In this document: positions 15,385 through 40,108 of the stretch, piece after piece
Layout of the letters: each line of letters starts with the position of its first letter
Numbering within the stretch: position 1 is the stretch's first letter
DNA from: Iamia majanohamensis
Lineage (GTDB): Bacteria > Actinomycetota > Acidimicrobiia > Acidimicrobiales > Iamiaceae
Direction of reading: 5' to 3'
Assembly: GCF_028532485.1 (NCBI RefSeq)
Contig: NZ_CP116942.1
Location: 4,092,001-4,156,000, forward strand
DNA length: 64,000 bases
Made by a program: the position numbers and the translations under genes
The notes under the pieces: model-generated
Databases searched by the model: none
Seen by the model: only the letters and a program-made list of their open reading frames with translations
Told to the model about the DNA's origin: nothing

Positions 15385-16572
<1,188 letters not shown>

Positions 16573-33155: not shown

Positions 33156-33530
33156 TCAGCCCGCGAGCGGGAGGCGGCGGCCCCGGCCCCGGGTGGCGAG
33201 CACGAGGGCGCCGGCGGCGCCCGCGGCCGCGGTGGCCGCGGCCAGGCCTCCGAGGTAGGCGACCCGACGCCCGGTGAGCAGGGACCGGATGGCCCGGCGC
33301 TCCCCGGCCTCCTCGATGTGGGCCAGCACCTCGGTGACCAGCCCGGGCGCCGGCACCAGGACCTCGGTGCGCAGCGAGCGCAGGGCCCGCAGCACCCGAC
33401 GGTGCTCCACCAGGTCGGCCTGGCACCGGAGGCAGGTCTCGACGTGGGCCCGGGCCTCCCGGTCGAGCGCCCCGTCGTCGGTGACGGCCGCGGCCAGGCG
33501 GTCGCCCAGGTCGGCACAGGTGGTGGTCAT
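33156..33530 (-). CDS. Anti-sigma factor, zinc-binding type
   Basis: Predicted membrane-anchored inhibitor of the adjacent ECF sigma factor. The 124-residue product has a ZAS-type motif (His29-x3-Cys33-x2-Cys36) and one C-terminal transmembrane segment (about 90-114), followed by a very short basic tail. The start overlaps the sigma gene stop (TGATG). This supports a sigma/anti-sigma pair made in fixed ratio. Confidence 0.85.
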   Translation of the reverse strand: MTTTCADLGDRLAAAVTDDGALDREARAHVETCLRCQADLVEHRRVLRALRSLRTEVLVPAPGLVTEVLAHIEEAGERRAIRSLLTGRRVAYLGGLAAATAAAGAAGALVLATRGRGRRLPLAG

Positions 33531-34189
33531 CAGAGGCTCCCCCTCGTGGCTCCCTCCGCCTCGGCCCCCGCACGGGCGGGGAAGAGGCGGTCCTTCAGCT
33601 TGCGGCGGGCCCGGTGCAGGCGCACCTTGGCCGCCGACTCCGAGATGCCCAGCTCGGCGGCGATGGCCTCGTGGGGCAGGTCGTAGACGTCGCGGAGGAC
33701 CACCACGGCCCGCAGCTTGGGCGGCAGCTCGTCGAGGGCCGCCGCCAGGCGGGTCCGGAGGTCCGACGCGTCGGCCTGGGCCGACGGGTCCAGGCCGGGG
33801 TCGGTGTCCACCACCACCAGGTCCTCGACCAGCTCGTCGTGGCGGTGCCGTCGACGCCGGCCCACGTGGGTCGAGGCGCAGTTGGCGGTGATGCGGTACA
33901 TCCAGGTCGAGAAGCGCGCCTCGCCGCGGAAGCGGCCGATCGACCGGTAGGCCCGCAGGTAGGCCTCCTGGACGACGTCGCGGGCGTCGTCGTCGTCGCC
34001 CGTGAGGCGACGGGCCAGCGTGTAGGTCTCCACGTGGGTGGCGGCGACGAGGTCCTCGAAGGCGGCGTCGTCGCCGGACTGGGCCCGGGCCACGAGCGCG
34101 GCCATGGCCTCGGGGTCCGCGCGCAGCTCGCGCGCCCGCGGTCCCGGCCGCACTCCGACGTCGGTCACCATCGGGCCATCAGACCCCAT
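33530..34189 (-). CDS. ECF RNA polymerase sigma factor
   Basis: Alternative sigma factor of the extracytoplasmic-function class. The 219-residue product has region 2 at about 43-108 (DDARDVVQEAYLRAYRSIGR, then FSTWMYRITANCA). Region 4 is at about 147-202 (LPPKLRAVVVLRDVYDLPHE, then ISESAAKVRLHRARRKLK). A GGAGG lies 5 nt before the ATG. It is coupled to the anti-sigma gene and placed between rpmG and tRNA-Trp. The inducing signal is unknown. Confidence 0.92.
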   Translation of the reverse strand: MGSDGPMVTDVGVRPGPRARELRADPEAMAALVARAQSGDDAAFEDLVAATHVETYTLARRLTGDDDDARDVVQEAYLRAYRSIGRFRGEARFSTWMYRITANCASTHVGRRRRHRHDELVEDLVVVDTDPGLDPSAQADASDLRTRLAAALDELPPKLRAVVVLRDVYDLPHEAIAAELGISESAAKVRLHRARRKLKDRLFPARAGAEAEGATRGSL

Positions 34190-34493: not shown

Positions 34494-35681
<1,188 letters not shown>

Positions 35682-35726: not shown

Positions 35727-35756
35727 TCGGTGTGGGTGGGTTGTGGGACCTTGCGG

Positions 35757-35830
35757 TGGCGACGGTCGGGTTCGAACCGACGACCCCTCGATTATGAGCC
35801 GAGTGCTCTCACCAGCTGAGCTACGTCGCC
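35757..35830 (-). tRNA. tRNA-Met (CAT), probably elongator
   Basis: Acceptor GGCGACG/CGTCGCC, D arm GCTC/GAGC, anticodon stem CTCGG/TCGAG with loop CTCATAA (anticodon CAT), T arm GTCGG-TTCGAAC-CCGAC. Position 1-72 is a normal pair and the anticodon stem lacks the initiator GGG/CCC run, so it is not initiator tRNA. A lysidine-type Ile2 tRNA cannot be fully excluded. CCA is not encoded. Confidence 0.93.
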
Positions 35831-35880
35831 GGGGGCCAGCGGCGGACGGCGCCCCGCGGGACGCCCACCGGCTGGTGGCG

Positions 35881-35953
35881 AGCCTCCTGTGGGAATCGAA
35901 CCCACGACCTTTTCCTTACCATGGAAACGCTCTGCCGACTGAGCTAAGGAGGC
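35881..35953 (-). tRNA. tRNA-Thr (GGT)
   Basis: Acceptor GCCTCCT/AGGAGGC, D arm GCTC/GAGC, anticodon stem TTTCC/GGAAA with loop ATGGTAA (anticodon GGT), T arm GTGGG-TTCGATT-CCCAC. The discriminator is T and CCA is not encoded. It heads the tRNA-Thr/tRNA-Met/tuf/rpmG unit. Confidence 0.95.
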
Positions 35954-36149: not shown

Positions 36150-37454
36150 GTGCGACTGACCCGGATGGTGATCGAGGCGGGCCGCCACACGATCGCGCTC
36201 GACCTGCACCCGCGCCTGACGGTGATCACCGGCGTGGGTGACCTCGAGCGCGAGAGCCTGGCCGGCGAGCTGCTGGGGGCGATGGGGCGCAGCCGCCCCG
36301 GCGTCCACGTCGAGGTGACGACCGACGACGGCCGCCACCTCGCCCTGTTCCGCCCGGCGAGCGGCCAGGCCCGGCTGGTCGACGTCGAGCGCGCCCTCGA
36401 CGTCACGCCGACCGAGGCCGACGGCGGCGTCGACCTCTACGCCCAGCACGGCCTCGACCTGGCCACCGCCCGCCGGGCCCTCAAGGTCACCCCCGCCGAC
36501 CTCACCACCCAGGCCCGGGCCGACGTGGTCGTGGCCCGCCTGGCCGACGTCGACCAGACCGCCCTGTGGGCCGCCGCGGCCCGGGTGCGGGTGACCGACG
36601 AGGCCCTCCAGGCCGAGTCGGCGGCGGCGGGGACGGCTCCCGAGGACGCCGAGCTCATCGACCGCATCGAGGCCCGCCACGCCCAGGTCGAGGGGGCCCT
36701 CGAGACCATGACCCGCTCGCGCCGGCTGGCCCGGCTCGTCACCGCCGTCGGCGTGCTCGGCTGCATCCCGGCCCTGGCCATCGCCCCCCTTCTGGCCCTC
36801 CCCCTCGTGGGGATCACCGTGGCCACCCTCGCGGTGGCCTTCCTCTTCAAGGCGCGGGTCGACCGGGCCCAGCGGGCCGAGCAGGAGGCCCTCGACGCGG
36901 CCGGGGCCGAGTCGTACCTCGGCTTCCAGGTCCGCCGGGTGGACGGCCTGGTCACGACCGACCAGGCCCGGCGCCACCTGCTCGAGGCCGCCGCGGAGCA
37001 CCGGGCCGCCGCGGCCCAGTGGTTCGACCTGGCCGGCGACACCAGCGTGGACTGGGCCCTCGAGCACCACGCCGAGGTCTCGACCGCCGCCCGCCTGCGG
37101 GCCGACGTGCGCAACCTGGGGGTGATGTCGTCCAGCGCCCCCGGCGACGGCGACATGGCCTCGGACCTGGCCCACGCCCTCCTCGGCCGCATGGCCCGGG
37201 CCCGCACGCTCGGCGACCTGGGCGAGACCTTCCCCCTCGTGGTCGACGAGGTCTTCCGCGACCTCGACCCCGCCCTCAAGGTGCCGCTCCTCGAGCTGCT
37301 CGCCCGCTCCGCCGGCGACCCGCAGGTGATCCTGCTCACCGCGGACGAGGAGGTCGCCTCGTGGGCGCGCCTCGAGGCGCTCACCGGCAGCCTGTCGGTG
37401 CTCGAGCCGACCCCGGAGCCGGAGCCGGCGCGCGCCGGCGACGTCGTCGCCTGA
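36150..37454 (+). CDS. Unrecognised ATPase-like protein with central membrane hairpin
   Basis: I do not recognise this family. The 434-residue product looks like a split ABC/SMC-type ATPase. The N terminus has an ITGVGDLERES loop (26-36) where a Walker A would be, but the P-loop lysine is absent. The C terminus has FPLVVDEVFRDLD (361-373), like Walker B plus D-loop, then a strand VILLTADEEV (393-402) as in SMC/RecF head domains. Between them lie predicted coiled-coil arms (about 150-190 and 236-290) around two adjacent hydrophobic helices (about 194-233). ATP binding is doubtful without the lysine. The start is GTG 36150, or ATG 36165. No Shine-Dalgarno is clear. It is divergent from tRNA-Thr and 54 nt before the acetyltransferase. 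Confidence 0.7.
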   Translation: MRLTRMVIEAGRHTIALDLHPRLTVITGVGDLERESLAGELLGAMGRSRPGVHVEVTTDDGRHLALFRPASGQARLVDVERALDVTPTEADGGVDLYAQHGLDLATARRALKVTPADLTTQARADVVVARLADVDQTALWAAAARVRVTDEALQAESAAAGTAPEDAELIDRIEARHAQVEGALETMTRSRRLARLVTAVGVLGCIPALAIAPLLALPLVGITVATLAVAFLFKARVDRAQRAEQEALDAAGAESYLGFQVRRVDGLVTTDQARRHLLEAAAEHRAAAAQWFDLAGDTSVDWALEHHAEVSTAARLRADVRNLGVMSSSAPGDGDMASDLAHALLGRMARARTLGDLGETFPLVVDEVFRDLDPALKVPLLELLARSAGDPQVILLTADEEVASWARLEALTGSLSVLEPTPEPEPARAGDVVA

Positions 37455-37508: not shown

Positions 37509-38036
37509 GTGCAGGTCCGACTGGCCGACCTCGACGACGTCGAGGGCATCCGCGCCATCTACAACCGCGAGGTCCTGGAGGGCACGGCCACCTTCGACCT
37601 CCGACCCCGCTCCCCCGAGGAGCAGCGCGCCTGGCTGACCGACCGCGACGGGGCCCACGCCGTGGTGGTGGCCGTCGAGGGCGCGACGGTGCTCGGCTTC
37701 GGCTCGCTGTCGCCGTACCGGCCCCGGCCGGCCTACCGCACCACGGTGGAGGACTCGGTGTACGTCGACCCCGACCAGCAGGGCCGGGGCGTGGGCCGGG
37801 CGATCCTGGAGGCCCTGGTCGCCACCGCGACCCAGCACGGCTTCCACCTCGTGATCGGCCGCATCACCGGCCACAACGAGGCGTCGGTGGCCCTGCACCA
37901 CGCCTGCGGGTTCGAGACCGTGGGCGTGGAGCGCGAGGTCGGGCGCAAGTTCTCCCGCTGGCTCGACGTGGTGGTGGTCCAGCGCCTGCTGGGCGATCCC
38001 CGTCCCCCGGCGGCCGGCGGCGGCCGCAGGGGCTGA
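37509..38036 (+). CDS. GNAT acetyltransferase, phosphinothricin acetyltransferase-like
   Basis: Predicted cytoplasmic N-acetyltransferase using acetyl-CoA. The 175-residue product has the acetyl-CoA loop QGRGVG (91-96), NEASVALHHACGFE (123-136) and the C-terminal GRKFSRWLDVVVVQ, all typical of the PAT/Bar subgroup. The natural substrate may be an amino acid such as methionine sulfone or sulfoximine rather than an antibiotic. The start is GTG 37509 with a leaderless-type -10 box. Confidence 0.85.
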   Translation: MQVRLADLDDVEGIRAIYNREVLEGTATFDLRPRSPEEQRAWLTDRDGAHAVVVAVEGATVLGFGSLSPYRPRPAYRTTVEDSVYVDPDQQGRGVGRAILEALVATATQHGFHLVIGRITGHNEASVALHHACGFETVGVEREVGRKFSRWLDVVVVQRLLGDPRPPAAGGGRRG

Positions 38037-38537: not shown

Positions 38538-39392
38538 GTGGCCCTGTCGCCGCCCGTCGGCGCGGGGTACCCATGGGTGGTGCTCTCCGGTCTGCGACGC
38601 CTCCTCGCCCGAGACCCCCGCGCCGCGGGACGGGAGGCCGGCGTCGACGTGCCCCCCTGGGACGTCGGATGGGCGACCGCACCGGGGCACCGGGGCGAGA
38701 ACCAGGACCGGGTCCGCACCGGGACCGGCTGGCTCGTCGTCTGCGACGGCGTCGGCGGCCACGCAGGGGGCGCCCGGGCCGCGACGCTCGCGGCCGAGGC
38801 CGCGGCCGACGCGCTCCGCACGGCCGAGGGTCCCACCCCGGCCCGCCGGGCCGTCGCGGTCGCGCACCGGGCCGTGCGCGGCGGCCGGGTCGACCCCGCC
38901 TGCCACGAGATGGCCACCACCGTGACCGCGGCCCGGGCCCTCGGGCACGGCCGGCGCTGGGTGGTGGCCCACGTGGGCGACTCCCCCGCCTGGCGGGTCG
39001 CCGAGGGGCGCGCCGTGCAGGTCACCCAGGACCACACCGTCGCCGGCGAGCTCCTGGCCGAGGGCGCGATCGGGGCGGCGACGGCGGCGCACCACCCCGG
39101 TCGGCGCTTCGTCACCCGGGTGGCCGGGGCCCGCGAGGGGGTCGAGCCCGACGTCGTGGAGGTCGACCTGGCCGGTGGTGCGGCGCTGGTCGTCGCCACC
39201 GACGGGGTCGCCGACGTGCTCGGCCCCGACGCGGTCGCAGCCGTGGTCGGCGCTGCGCCCGACGCCGCGGCCGCAGCAACGGCGCTGGTCCGGGCGGCGG
39301 GGAGGGCCGGGACCACCGACGACGCCACCGCCGCCGTCGTCCGCGCCGGGCGGCCCGGGGGTGCCGGCACCGGCCCCTCGCGGGCGACGTGA
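38538..39392 (+). CDS. PP2C-type serine/threonine protein phosphatase
   Basis: Metal-dependent phosphatase. The 284-residue product has the family motifs in order: RGENQDR, VVCDGVGGHAGG, the VAHVGDS strand, VATDGVADVL and TDDATAAVV, so the metal-binding aspartates are present. The start is uncertain: GTG 38538, or GTG near 38577-38582, which would remove a non-conserved leader. No transmembrane segment is seen. The stop overlaps the start of the FHA gene (GTGA), so the two probably act together. No Ser/Thr kinase gene lies nearby. Confidence 0.85.
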   Translation: MALSPPVGAGYPWVVLSGLRRLLARDPRAAGREAGVDVPPWDVGWATAPGHRGENQDRVRTGTGWLVVCDGVGGHAGGARAATLAAEAAADALRTAEGPTPARRAVAVAHRAVRGGRVDPACHEMATTVTAARALGHGRRWVVAHVGDSPAWRVAEGRAVQVTQDHTVAGELLAEGAIGAATAAHHPGRRFVTRVAGAREGVEPDVVEVDLAGGAALVVATDGVADVLGPDAVAAVVGAAPDAAAAATALVRAAGRAGTTDDATAAVVRAGRPGGAGTGPSRAT

Positions 39393-40108
39393 GCCTCCGC
39401 ACCCGGGTCGACCCGGGACCGTGGGGCGCGGACCACGACCGCGACGCGGTGGTGCGCCTCGGGCGGGGCCCGGAGAACGACGTCCGGGTCGGCCACCAGC
39501 GCGTCGGTGGCCGCTGGACCGTGTCGCGCGTGCACGCCGAGCTGCGGTGGGACGGCACCCGGTGGAGCACCCTCAACCTCAGCACCCGGCCGGGCCTCCT
39601 CGTCGTCTACGAGCCCGGGTGGGAGGAGGTGCCGATCGAGCCGGGCCGGCCCTGGGTCCCGGTCCGGCACCGGTGGTGCTACGGGATCGGACGGCCCGGC
39701 CAGCGGGTGCACGTGGTGTGCGAGACCGACGACCACCGCGGGCCGGGTGGGGTCGGCCCGCCGGAGGCGACGGGGCCGGACGGCGACGACGACGGGGCCG
39801 GGGACGACCTCACGACCGACCTGGTCGGCCCCCCGCCCCTGTCGCTCACCCCGCTGGAGAGGGAGGTGGTGCTGGCCTACTACTCGGACTTCGCCCTCCT
39901 CCCCCGTCCGGCCACCCTGGCGCCCCGCCCCCACGACCAGGCCGCCCGCCGGCTGGGCCGGTCGCGCGACTCCACCCGCAAGGCCATCGAGCGGGTGAAC
40001 CGCAAGGTGGCCGCGGTCGAGGGCGCCCCGGAGGTCGCCGAGGGCCGCAACGTGTCCGCCGAGGTCGGCCGCTGGCTGGCCCGGTGGGGCGCCCTCGACC
40101 CCCGCTGA
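39389..40108 (+). CDS. FHA-domain protein with C-terminal helix-turn-helix region
   Basis: Predicted phosphothreonine-binding regulator. The 239-residue product has an FHA domain at about 15-110 (RLGRGPENDVRVG at 23-35; SRVHAELRW at 46-54) with the usual Arg, Ser and His. An acidic Gly/Asp linker spans about 115-145. The C-terminal region (about 152-235) looks helical, with LTPLEREVVLAYY and RRLGRSRDSTRKAIERVNRK, like a winged or sigma-type HTH. DNA binding is inferred. GTG 39389 overlaps the phosphatase stop. Confidence 0.8.
   Translation: MSLRTRVDPGPWGADHDRDAVVRLGRGPENDVRVGHQRVGGRWTVSRVHAELRWDGTRWSTLNLSTRPGLLVVYEPGWEEVPIEPGRPWVPVRHRWCYGIGRPGQRVHVVCETDDHRGPGGVGPPEATGPDGDDDGAGDDLTTDLVGPPPLSLTPLEREVVLAYYSDFALLPRPATLAPRPHDQAARRLGRSRDSTRKAIERVNRKVAAVEGAPEVAEGRNVSAEVGRWLARWGALDPR

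Follow-up and report, generated by a model that had tools for sequence, protein, structure and literature searches.

The gene at 36150..37454 of the window (the whole 64,000-nucleotide stretch analyzed here, from the high-GC actinobacterium Iamia majanohamensis) probably encodes a pseudo-ATPase anchored in the membrane, which descends from SbcE/YhaN-type Rad50-like ATPases with a membrane hairpin and serves as a static, nucleotide-independent scaffold holding a partner at the membrane. The architecture itself is not novel, being a degenerate form of an already known type of membrane-associated Rad50-like ATPase; the novelty lies in a selected, ATPase-dead branch without a nuclease neighbor. 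The features of the gene and its immediate surroundings are as follows.

36150..37454, + strand: whole gene, short form of the putative membrane-anchored SMC/Rad50-type pseudo-ATPase; 434 amino acids plus stop, GTG start
36150..36521, + strand: N-terminal head lobe, residues 1-124 (AlphaFold2; hhalign to active group A2)
36231..36260, + strand: degenerate Walker A, G28-V-G-D-L-E-R34-E-S-L37, with Arg34 at the catalytic Lys position
36642..36725, + strand: ascending helical arm, residues 165-192 (AlphaFold2)
36732..36782, + strand: first hydrophobic helix of the hairpin, residues 195-211 (41-ortholog mean Kyte-Doolittle 1.99)
36786..36851, + strand: second hydrophobic helix of the hairpin, residues 213-234 (41-ortholog mean Kyte-Doolittle 1.70)
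36852..37034, + strand: descending helical arm, residues 235-295 (AlphaFold2)
37149..37406, + strand: C-terminal head lobe, residues 334-419 (hhalign to A2; PDB profile matches)
37233..37268, + strand: Walker B/D-loop-like stretch PLVVDEVFRDLD, residues 362-373
34494-35681: tuf, beyond tRNA-Met from the gene
35755-35830: tRNA-Met, beyond tRNA-Thr from the gene
35880..35953, - strand: tRNA-Thr, conserved upstream neighbor on the opposite strand
37509..38036, + strand: GNAT acetyltransferase, conserved downstream neighbor in most relatives

The start, length, and frame of the gene are kept in about 40 orthologs. Pairs of orthologs from the same genus gave dN of 0.16-0.22 against dS of 0.41-0.52 (NG86), a dN/dS of about 0.4, and these rates indicate that the gene is under purifying selection. 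As judged from searches with its sequence, no family model fits the product: a Pfam search up to E 10 returned zero families, AAA_27 (PF13514) included, PADLOC returned nothing, and NCBIfam gave just two sub-threshold ABC matches, the best being ThiQ at E 0.016. A phmmer search of PDB with the single sequence yielded chance matches to designed beta-trefoils only.

Within the same family, 22 of 24 genomes yielded an ortholog, and within the order about 31 of the 148 genomes sampled did; 37 genomes of the order had any match, the remainder being long relatives. Samples of 247 genomes from the class and 296 from the phylum contained no short form outside the order; long relatives alone were matched. 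The genomic position recurs in most relatives, which have secE, tRNA-Trp, sigma/anti-sigma genes, tuf, tRNA-Met, and tRNA-Thr, followed by the gene on the other strand and, on its 3' side, GNAT, tRNA-Tyr, YajQ, and HtpX. Genomes lacking the gene place GNAT directly after tRNA-Thr, both within the family (L155 and L156) and elsewhere in the order (L157, L161, and L164), and the same arrangement is seen in L165, which belongs to a different order of the class. A search for GKS-bearing copies at the tuf slot of genomes in which the gene had not been detected showed the slot closed wherever it could be judged. The preliminary description had proposed that a conserved position beside tRNA-Thr and tuf would point to a housekeeping role; the position is indeed conserved across the order, but an essential housekeeping role is not supported, since several relatives, two of them in the same family, have the slot closed. 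The gene is an accessory gene of one order, located at a fixed site, cleanly gained or lost, and selected where present.

Several other features of this neighborhood were recorded. Sigma-factor-like and anti-sigma-like genes lie between tuf and tRNA-Trp (33156-34189) and are kept in most relatives. The window holds two tuf genes with the same N-terminal sequence (15388-16572 and 34494-35681), and the contigs of many relatives break at the tuf copy beside the gene, as expected of a repeat. Farther downstream (38538-40108), a PP2C-like phosphatase gene precedes a reading frame that contains an FHA-like stretch, as read from the sequence.

AlphaFold2, given a 41-sequence alignment as input, predicted the protein with a mean pLDDT of 89.5 and a pTM of 0.68, and in this model both termini join to form one two-lobed SMC/Rad50-type head. 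The top 50 Foldseek matches in PDB were heads of SMC, Rad50/SbcC, MukB, JetC-type, or PARIS AriA proteins, and Rad50 heads ranked first in VIA-align. Differences in the arms gave several high-Z VIA-align matches a large rmsd, while compact heads superposed well; 1e69_A aligned over 209 residues (Z 13.8, rmsd 3.6) and 4nch_A over 230 residues (Z 13.4, rmsd 4.3). Sequence matches in PDB to ABC ATPases and Rad50 required the family profile rather than the single sequence. With that profile, the Walker B half matched the ABC ATPase EcfA2 best (E 1.3e-4) and Rad50 at E 0.005.

The nucleotide site of this head is extensively altered, as counted over 41 aligned orthologs. The N-terminal loop aligns without gaps to GLNESGKSSW of the active group, and the Walker A consensus GxxxxGK[ST] is absent from the family: Arg34 occupies the Lys position in 41/41 sequences, Gly28 is kept in 38/41, the second Walker A Gly is present in 1/41 (lost in 40/41), and Ser stands at the Ser/Thr position in 2/41 (lost in 39/41). 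A Walker B strand of the hydrophobic-Asp type is retained, and it is here that the profile matches the Walker B regions of Rad50 and ABC proteins; within this stretch Pro362 and Asp366 are invariant (41/41) and position 367 holds Asp or Glu in 40/41, and Gln392, outside it, is likewise invariant (n = 41). The LSxG signature, LSHGT or LSRGT in active relatives, is absent from the corresponding region of the orthologs. The stretch aligned to RQA/NQA of the active relatives has no conserved Gln, so the Q-loop Gln has apparently been lost as well, a loss seen in a single profile alignment and less secure than those of the other motifs. ATP binding by this head is doubtful, given that the Lys has been lost along with the P-loop glycine and the Mg-binding Ser/Thr, although the invariant Arg34 and Asp366 could allow some binding of a nucleotide or phosphate to survive. 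The preliminary description had proposed a structural protein that possibly binds ATP without hydrolyzing it; the absence of an ATP cycle remains likely, whereas the binding it considered possible has become doubtful with the loss of the Walker A Gly and the Ser/Thr.

Between the two lobes, predicted helices at residues 165-211 and 213-250 flank a hydrophobic turn and are followed by a helix at 256-295. The most hydrophobic 40-residue segment of the protein spans residues 193-232 (mean Kyte-Doolittle 2.14), a value reached by 6 of 20,000 shuffles of the sequence, and both stretches of the hairpin are hydrophobic across the aligned orthologs. The tip of the arms carries this helix pair and neither a hinge domain nor a zinc hook. 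The 12 residues on each side contain on average 2.9 and 3.1 Lys plus Arg in the orthologs; on sequence grounds the hydropathy, low charge, and Lys/Arg-rich flanks fit two spans with cytoplasmic ends, from which we infer insertion into the membrane. In three orthologs (L022, L055, and L056) the hairpin is missing together with most of the arms, and the head motifs, Arg34 among them, are retained. The model of one of them, L055, shows the same predicted head (pLDDT 84.7) and superposes on 1e69_A over 211 residues with Z 13.6 and rmsd 4.2. Because these natural variants keep the head, the models indicate that the hairpin is a separate, dispensable module and not the core of a soluble fold; a soluble core is what the preliminary description had named as evidence against its reading. 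That description was right on anatomy and close on function. It had proposed an SMC/RecN-head layout with the hinge replaced by a membrane hairpin, which the predicted head and the helix pair support; an ABC-type head formed by both termini, which it had named as evidence in favor, is what the model shows, and the family profile matched ABC ATPases and Rad50 in PDB. The N-terminal loop without the Walker A Lys, the C-terminal Walker B/D-loop-like stretch, the adjacent hydrophobic helices at about 194-233 between coiled-coil arms, and the failure to recognize a named family were likewise confirmed.

Close active counterparts are four Rad50-like ATPases of 809-932 amino acids from the same class, which match Pfam AAA_27, SMC_N, and AAA_23.

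L136, 3886-6681: Rad50-like ATPase with mid-arm hydrophobic segments, SbcD-like metallophosphoesterase gene adjoining
L137, 3741-6167: Rad50-like ATPase with mid-arm hydrophobic segments, SbcD-like metallophosphoesterase gene adjoining
L138, 1254-4013: Rad50-like ATPase with mid-arm hydrophobic segments, SbcD-like metallophosphoesterase gene adjoining
L145, 3668-6460: Rad50-like ATPase with one mid-arm hydrophobic segment above threshold, SbcD-like gene adjoining

These relatives share with the short form the homologous head lobes, the layout built from both termini, and the hydrophobic segments in mid-arm, two each in L136, L137, and L138. Unlike the short form, they are about twice as long, have the Walker A Lys (P-loop GKS, or AKS in L138) and an LSHGT or LSRGT signature, and adjoin, in all four cases, a metallophosphoesterase gene related to SbcD/Mre11. 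They are apparently membrane-tethered Mre11-Rad50-type pairs, as far as sequence and gene order go; no NCBIfam model was found for L136 or L145. A nuclease gene of the SbcD/Mre11 kind was found neither in 12 regions around the short form nor in the 64-kb window. In hhalign comparisons with group A2, the N lobe matched with a probability of 96.9 (E 1.7e-10) and the C lobe matched the A2 C lobe with a probability of 98.4 (E 9.3e-15), each E-value referring to one comparison, and these alignments indicate that both lobes are homologous to the active AAA_27-matching Rad50-like group. A two-lobe tree, whose inner branches are weak, split the GKS-less proteins from the active relatives and the classical YhaN-like L146 with a support of 0.999.

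The same active proteins bear on the origin of the hairpin. Since GKS-bearing relatives beside SbcD-like genes also have hydrophobic segments in mid-arm, the hairpin was probably inherited. It is not a general AAA_27 feature, because L146, a classical AAA_27 YhaN-like protein with an SbcD-like neighbor in a related genome, is without it. By family, we take SbcE/YhaN of B. subtilis to be the nearest characterized relative; it has an SMC-like head of the AAA_27 kind and, unlike the short form, is a large putative ATPase. SMC, Rad50, and SbcC heads (PDB 1e69, 3qkt, and 6s85) resemble the short form in their two-lobed ABC head and helical arms but possess the complete set of ATPase motifs, and their coiled coils are long and carry a hinge or zinc hook where the short form has its hydrophobic hairpin. 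A literature search for membrane SMC-like or pseudo-ATPase SMC proteins returned nothing relevant. We also considered that the protein might regulate an active YhaN-like ATPase encoded in the same genome, and dropped this idea because no close active member was found there, only weak matches that are apparently RecF-like and SMC-like.

From their sequences, the ATPase-dead paralogs come in three forms: the short form, a long form with a hairpin, and a long form without one.

L025:541-2940, L026:481-2886, L101:6930-9305, and L102:6054-8417: long GKS-less form with hairpin, about 800 amino acids, Walker A Lys replaced by Arg
L135, L142, and L147: long GKS-less form without hairpin, about 710-830 amino acids
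L135, 5982-8462: from the I. majanohamensis genome itself, at about 2588981-2591458; 827 amino acids, no hairpin, near an ArsA-like ATPase gene

Like the short form, the long paralogs have a degenerate Walker A, keep the Walker B region, and lack a nuclease neighbor in the regions checked (no SbcD/Mre11-like gene around five of them); they differ in their much longer coiled coils and their own conserved gene neighborhoods. Those with a hairpin neighbor gamma-carbonic-anhydrase-like and oligopeptidase-like genes (named by reading the sequence), and those without one neighbor an ArsA-like ATPase gene or an SRPBCC-like gene, with the L142 and L147 genes at a similar place. The Lys position in the three hairpin-less proteins holds Arg in L142 and Ala or Gln in the other two.

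Three other readings of the short form were weighed. Arg34 might stand in for the Lys, with Asp366 holding the site, so that ATP binding would dimerize membrane-tethered heads with slow turnover or none. The invariance of both residues fits such a switch, and the Arg in the long hairpin form suggests a retained role for this residue; but with the Walker A Gly lost in 40/41 orthologs, the Ser/Thr lost in 39/41, and no LSxG signature left to complete a sandwich dimer, we regard it as unlikely. Still less likely is that the hairpin forms the oligomerization tip of a soluble coiled coil in a cytosolic scaffold. The two helices are joined by a very short turn and are rich in Ala, Gly, and Leu, and the hairpin-less orthologs are presumably soluble; against this stand the two conserved, charge-poor stretches of about 17-22 residues with Lys/Arg-rich flanks, the similar segments in the long paralogs and active relatives, and the membrane prediction listed for YhaN of S. 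haemolyticus in a surface-shaving study (PMC7137321). That the gene is a functionless, decaying remnant of a Rad50-like ATPase gene is very improbable: its catalytic motifs are lost and several relatives lack it and have a closed slot, but the frame has stayed open in many families of the order, with length, start, and invariant residues preserved, and dN/dS is about 0.4.

A static scaffold is favored because the nucleotide contacts are lost, which makes an ATP-driven cycle of opening and closing unlikely. The two termini would fold into one cytoplasmic SMC/Rad50-type ABC head, joined by short helical arms to a pair of membrane-embedded helices that would take the position of the usual hinge or zinc hook and tether the head at the cytoplasmic side of the membrane. 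Since the Walker A Lys is fixed as Arg and other contacts are lost, the head probably runs no ATP cycle, and the simplest use left to it would be constitutive binding of DNA or of a partner, which might be a second head such as that of a long paralog. SMC and Rad50 heads are viewed as ATP-driven machines. Fixation of Lys as Arg, retention of the fold, and retention of the hairpin in two of the three forms suggest that such a head can be useful without an ATP cycle; the ATPase-dead group would then be a natural separation of the tethering role from the motor role, for which hairpin-less orthologs and active, nuclease-paired relatives offer ready-made controls.

The short form may perhaps partner with the long paralogs, as suggested by their co-occurrence. 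In the order sample, 19 genomes had both the short form and the hairpin-less long form, 12 the short form only, 7 the long form only, and 110 neither (Fisher p 1e-10); these counts were assigned by hand, the absences are soft since few candidates were scored per genome, and shared ancestry alone can yield such a table. It is conceivable, though we would not expect it, that the two or three ATPase-dead paralogs of the order together form a nucleotide-independent scaffold tying DNA or other cargo to the membrane, descended from a nuclease-coupled membrane Rad50-like ATPase. Two further variants were observed. In the genus of the window, the slot of the roughly 800-residue hairpin paralogs holds shorter versions (L098, 462 amino acids; L099, 398 amino acids), and in one genus a second, diverged short-form copy lies away from the tuf locus (L105, on the minus strand, and L106:2236-3546; genomes G062 and G141).
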